From Methanocalculus taiwanensis (GTDB lineage Archaea; Halobacteriota; Methanomicrobia; Methanomicrobiales; Methanocorpusculaceae): 50,084 bases of DNA. The stretch covers positions 1 through 50,084 of the forward strand of contig NZ_VOTZ01000018.1 of NCBI RefSeq assembly GCF_024372745.1. The letters run 5' to 3'. A model generated the notes under the pieces. That model saw nothing but the letters and a program-made list of their open reading frames with translations, did no database searches and was not told where the DNA came from. Shown one piece after another: positions 31,503 to 35,548 of the stretch (position 1 is the stretch's first letter; the number at the start of each line of letters is the position of its first letter). Made by a program: the position numbers and the translations under genes.

Positions 31503-32144
31503 ATGAAGAACGGAGGCAATGCGTCTTCGGTACAGGCACTTGAATCTGCCCTCCTCAGTTCAGATTCCAAAGGAGCCAGGGAGATACTGGTGGGATCATG
31601 CAACCCTGCTGATCCATATGCCTGCATCTCCACCCTGATTGAGCCTGCACTCAGGTCAATTGGAGAGCAATGGGCTCTGGGGGATGCCGCCCTCTCCCAG
31701 ATCTACGTGAGCGGCAGGATCTGCGAGGAATATATCCGCAGCCTGCCGCTTCCCATGTCAGGGATACGGGAAGATCAGCCAAGGATCGCGATTGCCGTTC
31801 TGGAGGATTTTCATACCCTCGGCAAGGAGACCGTCCTTGCTGCCCTCCATGCCTCTGGTTATTGCGTGGAGGACTATGGTGCCGGGATTACTGTTCCCGA
31901 GCTCCTCGAACTGGTAAAGCGGGATGGAATAGAGGTGCTCTTTGTTTCCACCCTGATGCTCCGTGCAGCACTTGAGGTGCGGCACCTGATGGATGGAATC
32001 CATGAGGATGGAATACCCGTCCGGGTGATCGTCGGCGGTGCTCCCTTCCTCTTTGATGATCTGCTCTGGAAAGAGGTCGGGGCGGATGCCTTTGCCCATG
32101 ATGCGGCAGAAGCTGTCGGTCTTCTGGAAGGAGGGGTTAAATGA
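31503..32144 (+). CDS. Corrinoid-binding (B12-binding domain) protein
   Basis: A 213-residue protein with the helical cap domain of methyltransferase corrinoid proteins (about residues 10-85, 'LIEPALRSIGEQWALGDAALSQIYVSGRI') followed by a Rossmann-like cobalamin-binding domain (about 92-210). The cobalt-ligand motif D-x-H-x-x-G is intact (D102, H104, G107 in EDFHTLG), and IVGGAPF near 176 fits the second loop. Related to MtaC/MttC-type proteins, which carry methyl groups in methylotrophic methanogenesis, but no substrate methyltransferase (MtaB, MttB) is present. A TATA-like element at 31471 would give a very short leader. The gene overlaps the UroD-like gene (ATGA). Confidence 0.9.
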   Translation: MKNGGNASSVQALESALLSSDSKGAREILVGSCNPADPYACISTLIEPALRSIGEQWALGDAALSQIYVSGRICEEYIRSLPLPMSGIREDQPRIAIAVLEDFHTLGKETVLAALHASGYCVEDYGAGITVPELLELVKRDGIEVLFVSTLMLRAALEVRHLMDGIHEDGIPVRVIVGGAPFLFDDLLWKEVGADAFAHDAAEAVGLLEGGVK

Positions 32145-33181
32145 GCGGAGATGAGATGACCCCGCTTGAGCGGACACTCACTGCTCTCTCCCATAAAGAG
32201 CCGGATCGGGTACCGCTCTTTTTAAACCTCACGATGCACGGGGCCCGTGAGCTTGGGTTATCAATCCGTGATTATTATCAGAAGGTGGAACATGTGGTCA
32301 AAGGCCAGGAGCTTCTTATGAAGAAGTATGGCAACGACTGCCTGACCGGCTTCTGTTACGGGGCAGCAGAAGTTGAGGCGTTTGGGGGGAGTGTCCGGTT
32401 CTTTGAGAACGGTCCGCCAAATGCCGGAGCCCCGCCCATCCGGGATCTCAGGATGATTAGCTCTCTTGATGTGCCTGATCCGGCAGACTGCCCTCCGCTT
32501 CAACGCATGCTCGTGGCAACCCGGATCCTGGCAGAACGGTATGGCGATTCTGTTCCGGTTGCCGGTGTTGCGATCTCCCCGTTTTCGCTTCCTGTCATGC
32601 AGCTTGGCTTCTCACGGTATCTTGATCTCCTCCTCAGGGATGATCCCCTCTTCCGGGACCTGATGGAGGTGAATTGCAATTTCTGTACCACATGGGCGAA
32701 CCTCCAGATTGAAGCCGGTGCAACCGCGGTCGTCTACTTTGATCCGGTCACCTCTCCGACGATTATTCCTCCTGATATTGCGAGAAAGACAGGATGTCGG
32801 ATCGCCCGCGAGGTCATTCGGACGATCAAGGGTGGGGTTGCTTATCACCTTGCTTCAGGCCGCTGCCTTGCGATTGCTGAAGATCTGATAGATTCCGGAG
32901 CAGTTGCCCTTGGTGTTTCGGCACTCGAAGATCTCAGTCTTTTAAAGGATACATTTGCCGGGAAGATGGCACTTATCGGAAATCTGGATGGCGTATCGAT
33001 GAGGCGATGGTCCGGGAAGGAGGCAGAAGCCCGGGTCCGGGAGGCTGTGTCAAAGGCTGGTCCCGGTGGAGGCTTCATTCTCTCTGATAATCACGGGGAA
33101 ATTCCCTGGCAGGTTGGGGATTCTGTCATCATGACAATTGCTGACGCCGCCAGAACATATGGGAGATACCCGATCGCATGA
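32141..33181 (+). CDS. UroD-family methyltransferase-like protein lacking the zinc cysteines
   Basis: The 346-residue TIM-barrel protein belongs to the uroporphyrinogen decarboxylase/MtaA-MtbA family (N-terminal 'RTLTALSHKEPDRVPLFLN', 'DPVTSPTIIPPDIA', 'LIGNLDG'). Methyltransferases such as MtaA bind zinc with H-x-C and a later Cys; here the sites read YHLASG (H236, Ala where Cys is expected) and SDNHGEI (no Cys, H318). It therefore may not activate a thiol such as coenzyme M in the usual way. Its coding sequence overlaps both the corrinoid gene before it and the kinase gene after it by four bases, so it most likely works with them. True heme-pathway UroD is unlikely in this setting. Confidence 0.88.
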   Translation: MSGDEMTPLERTLTALSHKEPDRVPLFLNLTMHGARELGLSIRDYYQKVEHVVKGQELLMKKYGNDCLTGFCYGAAEVEAFGGSVRFFENGPPNAGAPPIRDLRMISSLDVPDPADCPPLQRMLVATRILAERYGDSVPVAGVAISPFSLPVMQLGFSRYLDLLLRDDPLFRDLMEVNCNFCTTWANLQIEAGATAVVYFDPVTSPTIIPPDIARKTGCRIAREVIRTIKGGVAYHLASGRCLAIAEDLIDSGAVALGVSALEDLSLLKDTFAGKMALIGNLDGVSMRRWSGKEAEARVREAVSKAGPGGGFILSDNHGEIPWQVGDSVIMTIADAARTYGRYPIA

Positions 33182-34848
33182 AGGAGAAGGACGGCCTTGT
33201 TGGCATCCTTGCCTGCAGGAACCTTGATGATGAGGTTCGGTCTGCCCTTCGGGGCTCAGCGTATGAGAATATCAGGGCGATCTTCTTTGATCCTCATTGC
33301 AGCCTGCCGCTCCCTGAGTGGAACAAAGCGTTTGGAGAGGCATATGCGAATCTCTCAGCAGAAGTCGATCAGGTCTGTGTCCTGAGCTGCGGCTGCTCTT
33401 TTCCTGTGCCTGAGATCGGTTTCTCTGCCCATCTCAGATCTCCGGAAATGTTCCTTTCGAAACATGAACTCCGTTCACTCTCCGGGCCGGGTGTTTATAT
33501 GATCTCCTCGGGGTTTGCAGGGAGGTATCGCTCATCATTCCCCTGCCAGATATCCTCTCCGGGTGAAGAAAAACATCTCCCCGATACAGGGATTTCACGG
33601 ATCGTTCATCTCAGGACCCGTGATAATGGTACCGCCGATACCGGTGCCAGGGAGCTGGCGGATCGGCTCTCTGTGTCCCTCGCCATTGTGCCTGTTGATC
33701 TGGATCTCTTCTCAGCCAGGCTCCGGGAGACACTCGCCTCGCTTGAGTTGGTTGCCCTCAGGGAAAGGAAAATGGGGCAATTGAAAGGACTTGAGGAGCA
33801 GGTTGCGGATTACACGATGGCATTTGATCTTCTGAAGGATATTGCAGCCGCAGCCACTGAAAAAGAGGTGATCAGACGGATCGATCACCTCTTCAGACTC
33901 CTCTTCTCACCCTCTGTCATCAAACATTCTGATACTCTTTACGAAGAAGGGGCATCGGGTCTTCTTTTGCCGGTTGCATATGGAGGTGAGGTGCTCCTTT
34001 GGTTCCAGATTGATCACTTCGCACATCCCGAGTTTCTCGATGGATACAGGAATACTGCTGACGTCCTCCTTCCGGTTCTTGGCCTTGCGATTAAAAATGC
34101 CCGGACATACCAGCGGCTCCTTGATGCAAACGCAGAGAAGGATCAGGAGATTTCCGCAAGAAAAGAGGTTCAGGAAGCCCTTTCCCTGGCAAATAAGAAG
34201 CTCAACATTCTCACAGCGATCACACGACATGATATACTCAATGATATTATGGTTGCTTCCGCATACATTGATCTCGCCTCGGATTTTCCTATGTCTGACG
34301 AGGTGAAGACCTATTTCAGGCAGCTCGATGATCGGGTGTGTGCAATCCAGCATAAGATTGAGTTTACCCGTGACTATCAGGATATGGGTGTACAATTACC
34401 TTCGTGGCAGGATATTGGGTTATATATTGATTCCATAGCCCCGGATATCCTGAAGGTGTCGTCTCTTCGTCTTGAGAATGAACTGTCTGGTCTGGAAATT
34501 TTTGCGGATCCGATGCTCGACAAGGTGGTACATAACCTCTGCCAGAATGCCGTTTTCCATGCAGCTTCTGCAAGTAATCTCCGGTTTCGGGCTCTGGAGG
34601 ATTCCGGTGATCTCGTGATTTGTGTTTCCGATGACGGACCAGGGGTTCCGGATAACAAGAAGGAATCAATATTCAGGCCGGCATTTGGAAGAGGTCATGG
34701 TTTTGGCCTCTACCTGGTATCAGAAATTCTCTCGATCACCGGAATCACCATTGCTGAAACAGGGATAGCCGGTACAGGGGCTGAGTTTCGTATAAGAGTG
34801 CCTTCCGGCCGCTGGAGGAGGGGAAGGATGCCTCCTGCTGACTTTTAA
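33178..34848 (+). CDS. Histidine kinase with Cys-rich DUF1638-like N-terminal domain
   Basis: The 556-residue soluble protein has an N-terminal alpha/beta region (about 6-185) with cysteines C13, C41, C67, C71, C73 and C123, resembling DUF1638 proteins that occur near corrinoid methyltransferases; a coiled linker (about 190-215); a GAF-like region (about 215-315); and a histidine kinase: the phospho-acceptor H351 in TRHDILND, the N box NLCQNAVFHA, SDDGPGVP and GHGFGLYLVSEI. All kinase boxes are intact. It is the third gene of the cassette, overlapping the UroD-like gene, and has no membrane segment. This suggests that it senses the state of the corrinoid or methyl group inside the cell. No response regulator is adjacent. 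The DUF1638 assignment is by pattern only. Confidence 0.88.
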   Translation: MKEKDGLVGILACRNLDDEVRSALRGSAYENIRAIFFDPHCSLPLPEWNKAFGEAYANLSAEVDQVCVLSCGCSFPVPEIGFSAHLRSPEMFLSKHELRSLSGPGVYMISSGFAGRYRSSFPCQISSPGEEKHLPDTGISRIVHLRTRDNGTADTGARELADRLSVSLAIVPVDLDLFSARLRETLASLELVALRERKMGQLKGLEEQVADYTMAFDLLKDIAAAATEKEVIRRIDHLFRLLFSPSVIKHSDTLYEEGASGLLLPVAYGGEVLLWFQIDHFAHPEFLDGYRNTADVLLPVLGLAIKNARTYQRLLDANAEKDQEISARKEVQEALSLANKKLNILTAITRHDILNDIMVASAYIDLASDFPMSDEVKTYFRQLDDRVCAIQHKIEFTRDYQDMGVQLPSWQDIGLYIDSIAPDILKVSSLRLENELSGLEIFADPMLDKVVHNLCQNAVFHAASASNLRFRALEDSGDLVICVSDDGPGVPDNKKESIFRPAFGRGHGFGLYLVSEILSITGITIAETGIAGTGAEFRIRVPSGRWRRGRMPPADF

Positions 34849-34849
34849 A

Positions 34850-35107
34850 TCATCCGGTTATCATCCGGAGGATGCGGCGAAGAATGTACGGGGTGACAAG
34901 TGTCATAATAAGTGGTGCGATCCCCCCTTGTTTTGTCTCTGCTCTCTGCTCTCTTCCCTTCATGATTTTATTCGCCATAAAGGCGCCGATTCCCATTCCT
35001 CCCAGGAATGTGAAGAAGAGGGCAGGAATCGGGTGCCTTCTGACGCAAGATAGGTGATCCCGGGAGGCGCCCTTCTGTTTCTTTATTATCCTGGTTTTGT
35101 CTTTCAT
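34850..35107 (-). CDS. Small membrane protein, 85 residues
   Basis: The protein has a basic N-terminus, a probable membrane helix (about residues 27-45, PIPALFFTFLGGMGIGAFM) and a second hydrophobic stretch at 64-80. Family unknown. It is encoded six bases after the coiled-coil protein gene on the minus strand and thus likely belongs to its operon; its end abuts the stop of the histidine kinase gene on the other strand. Confidence 0.65.
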   Translation of the reverse strand: MKDKTRIIKKQKGASRDHLSCVRRHPIPALFFTFLGGMGIGAFMANKIMKGREQRAETKQGGIAPLIMTLVTPYILRRILRMITG

Positions 35108-35113
35108 ACCGGC

Positions 35114-35548
35114 TTACCTGAGTTTTGCTGCGATCAGGCCGACCAGAAACCCTGCCCCCGCAGCGATGGTGATCGAGGCGATCGGGTGATCGGCAACGAA
35201 ACTCTCGACAGTCTCGACCTTCTCCTGCATCACCTCGGCTTCTTTCTCTGCGAGGGTTTTTATCGTCTCTTCAGCATCATGAATCACCGCTTTGACAGTC
35301 TCCTGTACTTCTGCGGTATCCGGCACCTTCTCAGGGAGGAGGCTCTGCAGGGTTTCTTCCATATCCTTCACAAGAGCTTCCAGTTCCTCGCCCTCAATTT
35401 TGCTCCGGGCATTCTTCAGCTTTTTTGCCGCCTCTTCCATGGCTGCTGCAGCTTCTTTCTTCAGTTCTTCAAACTCTTTCTGGGCTTTCTCTTCCATTTC
35501 TGTTGCCGTTTCAGCAACCTTCTCTTCTGCTTCCTTTTTCGTGGTCAT
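35114..35548 (-). CDS. DUF883/ElaB-like coiled-coil protein with C-terminal membrane anchor
   Basis: A 144-residue protein rich in Glu, Lys and Ala, mostly predicted coiled coil (residues 1-110), ending in ADHPIASITIAAGAGFLVGLIAAK, the membrane helix and 'RP/HP' turn typical of ElaB/YqjD (DUF883) proteins. In bacteria such proteins tether ribosomes or respond to stress at the inner membrane; the archaeal role is unknown. A GAGGAG ribosome binding site precedes its ATG on the minus strand, and a TATA box lies about 65 bases upstream. Confidence 0.75.
   Translation of the reverse strand: MTTKKEAEEKVAETATEMEEKAQKEFEELKKEAAAAMEEAAKKLKNARSKIEGEELEALVKDMEETLQSLLPEKVPDTAEVQETVKAVIHDAEETIKTLAEKEAEVMQEKVETVESFVADHPIASITIAAGAGFLVGLIAAKLR

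Follow-up and report, generated by a model that had tools for sequence, protein, structure and literature searches.

The three-gene cassette

We analyzed a 50,084-nucleotide stretch of contig NZ_VOTZ01000018.1 from the archaeon Methanocalculus taiwanensis (hereafter, the window), in which a cassette of three genes occupies positions 31503-34848. Its open reading frames lie head to tail on the plus strand and encode, in this order, a B12-binding corrinoid protein (COR), a protein of the uroporphyrinogen decarboxylase (URO-D) fold (URO), and a histidine kinase (HK). A first-pass annotation made from the letters of the DNA had proposed these identities, which Pfam bears out, and had noted the ATGA overlaps that are indeed found at both joints. 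The following features were assigned:

31503-32144, plus strand: COR (213 amino acids), a stand-alone corrinoid protein with a helical cap and a Rossmann-type B12 domain (Pfam PF02310, 2.7e-13; PF02607, 9.2e-05)
31806-31823, plus strand: DxHxxG cobalamin lower-ligand motif of COR, D102-F-H104-T-L-G107 (family alignment)
32141-32144, plus strand: ATGA overlap, in which the TGA stop of COR shares bases with the ATG of URO (sequence)
32141-33181, plus strand: URO (346 amino acids), a TIM barrel of the URO-D/MtaA fold without zinc cysteines (PF01208, E 6.8e-45; AlphaFold (AF2) model; Foldseek)
32846-32857, plus strand: H236-L-A238-S239 of URO at the place of the HxC zinc motif, His retained and first Cys lost (alignment with ten MtaA/MtbA-type proteins)
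33086-33097, plus strand: D316-N-H-G of URO, replacing the second zinc Cys (GC) motif (same alignment; 80/81 rows, a near-invariance partly due to selection, since the peptide DNHGEIPW was among the search patterns for the fetched set)
33178-33181, plus strand: ATGA overlap, in which the TGA stop of URO shares bases with the ATG of the kinase (sequence)
33178-34848, plus strand: soluble sensor histidine kinase (556 amino acids) with DUF1638-like and GAF-like parts and a methanogen-type kinase core (HATPase_c 7e-15; H351, N-box 453, G1 485, G2 504)
33187-33744, plus strand: DUF1638-like N-terminal domain with cysteines C13, C41, and C73, and Ser88 at the fourth family Cys (PF07796 homologues; AF2 predicted local distance difference test (pLDDT) 89)
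33805-34122 (limits approximate), plus strand: GAF-like linker domain (family consensus ADYAMAxDLL...LFxMLFAP...VCGLAIxNAR)
34228-34230, plus strand: H351 in TRHDILND, the putative phospho-acceptor (sequence)
34516-34806, plus strand: HATPase_c catalytic domain, residues 447-543 (Pfam)

COR has the B12-binding domains and the DxHxxG motif by which corrinoid proteins of methyltransferase systems are recognized, and its closest solved structures are 4jgi, 3ezx (a monomethylamine corrinoid protein), and 7xcn (a trimethylamine corrinoid protein). The D, H, and G of the motif are each present in 78 of 79 aligned family rows, the remaining row being a gap, and this conservation suggests that COR binds a cobamide.

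URO scores 154 bits against the Pfam URO-D family, and its AF2 model (pLDDT 95.6) has as top Foldseek match the methyltransferase MtaA (4ay7; template modelling (TM) score 0.84), which is also the best solved relative of the family profile. The description of this protein as “zinc-less” in the first-pass annotation held up when URO and seven relatives were aligned with twelve other URO-D proteins of the same archaeal phylum. Ten of these twelve, which are MtaA/MtbA-type proteins, carry HxC and a second GC zinc motif where the cassette proteins have HxAS or HxAA and DNHG; the loss of the zinc cysteines is thus a trait of the URO subfamily. The columns of H236 (77/81 rows), A238 (77/81 rows), and S239 are free of the selection noted for DNHG. 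The protein falls below the cut-offs of curated MtaA-type families (TIGR01463, 84.2 vs 235.4 bits; NF004889, 88 vs 244 bits), and an identity as HemE, the uroporphyrinogen decarboxylase itself, was rejected on score (TIGR01464, 30.1 vs 302.95 bits). Archaeal and bacterial copies are approximately 55% identical, and the archaeal ones do not form one group in the URO tree. One copy (L155; G159:C1, URO at 2068669-2069691, minus strand) has an in-frame TAG where its close relative in L151 has Trp (QAWGG), possibly a nonsense change or else a read-through or pyrrolysine codon.

The third gene has the H-box and ATP-binding boxes of a histidine kinase, and the absence of a transmembrane-like stretch (top 19-residue hydropathy mean 1.54) is consistent with the cytoplasmic location claimed for it earlier. 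A feature overlooked in the first-pass annotation is that the N-terminal ~190 residues of the kinase belong to the DUF1638 superfamily. Homologous N-terminal segments match PF07796 at E<=1 in 65 of 68 cases (best 9.6e-16), as do 45 of 51 full-length third genes at E<=0.01 (best 4.8e-15). Over 70 aligned loci, cysteines are conserved at positions 13 (69/70), 41 (66/70), 73 (68/70), and 88 (60/70) of the window numbering. Between this domain and the kinase core, the label “GAF” for the linker is tentative, as Pfam GAF models are reached by few third-gene proteins. In Phaeobacter inhibens, mutant fitness showed that DUF1638 is required for methionine synthesis together with a RamA-like reactivator, which ties it genetically to methionine synthase and to methyl transfer and reactivation of corrinoids, with its precise function left open (PMC5764234), and in Ruegeria pomeroyi DUF1638 has been placed with cobalamin recharging (PMC12478193).

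Co-occurrence of the trio across genomes

Relatives were searched for with URO alone, which gave 180, of which 80 were fetched as loci. COR, URO, and a DUF1638 third gene stand close together in 76 of these 80 URO-seeded loci, from approximately 15 phyla; two of the four exceptions (L054, L106) stop at contig ends, and the other two (L104, L081) deviate. Among the hosts are Desulfobacterota, Nitrospirota, Nitrospinota, Pseudomonadota (including methanotrophs, Beggiatoa relatives, and magnetotactic cocci), Chloroflexota, Verrucomicrobiota, Kiritimatiellota, Lentisphaerota, Riflebacteria, Spirochaetota, Acidobacteriota, Bacillota, and two archaeal phyla. Joints are tight among the relatives (74/74 within 30 nucleotides, 70/76 within 60 nucleotides): the COR stop always lies at most 30 nucleotides from the URO start, and the commonest distance is -4 (33/74). 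Because the arrangement recurs in so many phyla, it is not due to chance.

Tests in archaeal genomes were independent of the peptide search patterns. Of 61 genomes of the host class, 10 contain the URO subfamily, and the DUF1638-kinase is found in exactly these 10, side by side with URO. Among 295 genomes of the host phylum, the URO subfamily is sharply bounded (19 genomes at E<1e-150, next best 3e-45); COR is adjacent in 19/19, a DUF1638-type gene adjoins URO in 17, and the remaining two have COR-URO-kinase with a short and divergent kinase N-terminus. The search for a conserved triple that the first-pass annotation had suggested therefore yields the COR-URO-kinase arrangement in all 19 archaeal genomes, in addition to the 76 URO-seeded loci. 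Most other archaeal DUF1638 matches are stand-alone proteins of ~200-250 amino acids whose genomes lack the URO subfamily. The pairwise divergences of COR, URO, and the third-gene protein are correlated (Spearman 0.50-0.62; 0/500 permutations as high), which has supporting weight only, as common species history would also produce such a correlation.

Several loci differ in detail. The third genes beside COR-URO at L151:3488-4900 and L155:3242-4654 still have the linker and the kinase core, but their N-terminus is short and divergent and lacks the cysteine pattern. In a Hyphomicrobiales bin, a divergent second copy (L063:183-2791) encodes COR and URO as one fused frame of 663 amino acids; after it come a stand-alone DUF1638 gene and the gene of a large kinase. 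At L160:3633-5399 (G083), a lone kinase with a weak DUF1638-like N-terminus has no COR or URO beside it, and a nearby gene resembles, by eye, an arsenite methyltransferase.

Signaling outputs and neighboring genes

In relatives, the same front end feeds histidine kinases, hybrid kinases, or diguanylate cyclases; the output domains detected in 51 third genes are HATPase_c (36), GGDEF (10), and receiver (8). A survey of 115 flanking genes, of which the 25 commonest families were listed, found Response_reg in 25 and HATPase_c in 20, the other listed families being further signaling domains or having few occurrences. None of the listed families is a corrinoid methyltransferase, and neither the survey nor the archaeal flanks, which vary by genus and hold mostly unrelated genes (by eye), revealed a constant target gene beside the triad.

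The earlier statement that no substrate-specific methyltransferase (MtaB, MttB, MtmB) is present stands for MttB, of which the window's genome has no member, and for the listed neighbor families of the relatives, whereas MtaB and MtmB were not searched for. A second URO-D protein over the cut-off is likewise absent from this genome, and ordinary methylotrophic methanogenesis was rejected as a role for the cassette on the absence of MttB and of another URO-D protein and on the loss of the zinc cysteines. Far from the cassette, the genome has one RACo_C_ter gene (a RamA-type corrinoid reactivator; G000:C28:10728-11483), so a means of keeping a corrinoid reduced may exist in the host. Downstream of the kinase in the window, two small genes (85 and 144 amino acids) lie on the minus strand at 34850-35548; they stay beside the cassette in several relatives of the same genus (L031-L033, L157, L159).

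A probable corrinoid-based sensory input module

The trio co-occurs across Bacteria and Archaea, its outputs are swapped, its neighbors are response regulators and kinases, and no methyltransferase partner is constant, which together strongly support COR-URO-kinase as a single functional unit with a signaling role, as the first-pass annotation had held. That annotation had named two findings that would speak against it, and neither was made: the genes stay together in nearly all relatives, and no methyltransferase of known substrate is always in the cluster. Genomic context gives good support to a sensory role. We consider it likely that the cassette serves as a sensory input module built on a corrinoid, with the DUF1638 domain reading the cobalt state (methyl, redox, or ligand). 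For a reading of corrinoid methylation or redox state in particular, the support is only indirect and comes from the DUF1638 literature (PMC5764234, PMC12478193) and from the conserved B12-binding motif.

In the mechanism that we propose, COR would carry the cobamide on H104, and URO, derived from an MtaA/MtbA-type fold but without the zinc cysteines needed there to activate a thiol acceptor, would dock on it with a ligand or methyl donor held in the barrel. Rather than making a bulk product, URO would serve to set or probe the state of the cobalt in COR, be it methyl-Co(III), Co(II), or Co(I). The DUF1638 domain, in which cysteines are conserved, could let the kinase read this state by binding COR or the COR-URO complex. 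The signal would then pass through the GAF-like linker to the kinase core or, in some relatives, to a diguanylate cyclase. Contacts among the three proteins are suggested by the gene order, by the paralogue in which COR and URO are fused, and by the known link between DUF1638 and corrinoid proteins. Among candidate signals, we rank the redox or methyl state of the corrinoid first, which fits the many hosts from anaerobic or redox-gradient habitats, and a putative specific ligand of URO second.

Several observations weigh against this interpretation. The window kinase's own DUF1638 match is weak (E 0.04-0.27; 11.5-14.1 bits vs the Pfam cut-off of 27), its fourth conserved cysteine is replaced by Ser88, and no solved structure gave a significant match to the DUF1638 model; a similarity to the SirB chelatase was too weak (TM 0.36) to be used for its fold. 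At locus L104, the third gene after COR-URO lacks DUF1638, and at locus L081 the contig contains no third gene downstream of COR-URO. No response regulator was found adjacent to the window cassette, although they are common beside relatives. The very strong conservation of URO is possibly a sign of a genuine catalytic role, and the open-access literature yielded no experimental work on any member of the cassette.

The strongest rival explanation takes up that conservation, together with the MtaA-like fold of URO: COR and URO would form a substrate:corrinoid methyltransferase for some methyl donor, DUF1638 would keep the corrinoid active, and the kinase would regulate genes, as MecA may for the mec cassette, which has a comparable layout (PMC9768040). 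We regard such a metabolic pair with its own regulator as unlikely, given that URO has lost its zinc cysteines and that neither a second methyltransferase nor a transporter or catabolic gene recurs beside the triad. The hosts, moreover, span methanogens, aerobic methanotrophs, and cable bacteria, and in the third genes scanned DUF1638 is fused to swapped signaling outputs and not to an enzyme.

The B12-binding motif of COR and the URO-D fold, which binds tetrapyrroles in other members, would also suit a sensor of cobamide or tetrapyrrole levels, with COR, perhaps together with URO, reporting the cell content and the kinase tuning synthesis or uptake. This is quite improbable: a corrinoid synthesis or uptake family does not recur among the families listed for the flanking genes, and both a methyltransferase-fold partner and a DUF1638 domain would be superfluous. 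A CarH-like light sensor, with adenosylcobalamin on COR and the kinase as output, can hardly be entertained: COR carries G54xxW57, one element of the published photoreceptor signature (GxxW, EH, GxxH, GxxxP; PMC11796333), but we reject photoreceptor identity on the other signature residues, as Q-V/I-Y stands in place of EH (Q66 in 76/79 rows, Y68 in 77/79) and the family lacks GxxH (E, N, D, or S at position 101), while URO would be left without a role and many hosts come from anaerobe groups living away from light.

We see roughly even chances that the cassette represents an undescribed sensory class. In this class, a whole corrinoid methyl-transfer unit (carrier, zinc-less transferase, and DUF1638 reader) would have become a signal receptor, shared by Archaea and many bacterial phyla and joined to kinase or cyclic-di-GMP synthase outputs, and would act as a protein-based cobalamin sensor that responds to methyl or redox state and not to light. 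The component families are known, and it is their assembly and their use as an exchangeable input module that appear to be new; the cassette would be a form of two-component or cyclic-di-GMP signaling with a cobalamin sensor, and possibly a new class. No description of the triad was found in the open-access literature, a limited scope that makes this weak evidence of novelty. In the open-access papers found, protein-based cobalamin sensing is mainly photoreception, and the cassette points to a widespread sensor made from methyl-transfer parts and spread across domains of life. It also suggests that DUF1638, a domain to which no function has otherwise been assigned (PMC5764234), may act as a reader of corrinoid proteins. 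Laboratory testing is feasible, as some bacteria have diguanylate cyclase outputs and the cassette is present in cultured hosts such as Geomonas.

Comparison with known systems

URO resembles the PF01208 methylcobamide methyltransferases MtaA, MtbA, and CmuA in its fold and in having a small corrinoid partner, but differs from them in the replacement of both zinc cysteines, its DNHGE motif, its scores far below their cut-offs, and its almost constant position beside a sensor kinase or cyclase. CmuA, for its part, carries a corrinoid domain within the same polypeptide as the methyltransferase. COR shares the cap, the B12 domain, and DxHxxG with MtmC/MttC/MtgC-type corrinoid proteins, yet stays under their family cut-off (63.8 vs 215.3 bits), has conserved W57, QxY, and GGAPFxxD, and lacks a cognate MttB-type gene. 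The stand-alone DUF1638 of P. inhibens (PMC5764234) is homologous to the third-gene domain, has conserved cysteines, and likewise stands beside corrinoid proteins, whereas the cassette domain is fused to a GAF-like linker and signaling outputs.

The mec cassette of dichloromethane fermenters likewise unites a kinase and a corrinoid protein in one cluster with MtaA/CmuA-family methyltransferases, alongside a receiver (PMC9768040). It differs in the PocR sensor domain of its kinase, its several methyltransferases, receiver, and transporter, its narrow host range, and its metabolic role; the combination of multiple methyltransferases, a PocR kinase, and a transporter was found neither in the window nor among the relatives' neighbors. 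With CarH and the photocobilins, the cassette has in common the use of a B12-binding domain in signaling, including diguanylate cyclase outputs (PMC11796333), but COR lacks their signature, and the sensor of the cassette would be divided over three proteins, one of them with a methyltransferase fold.

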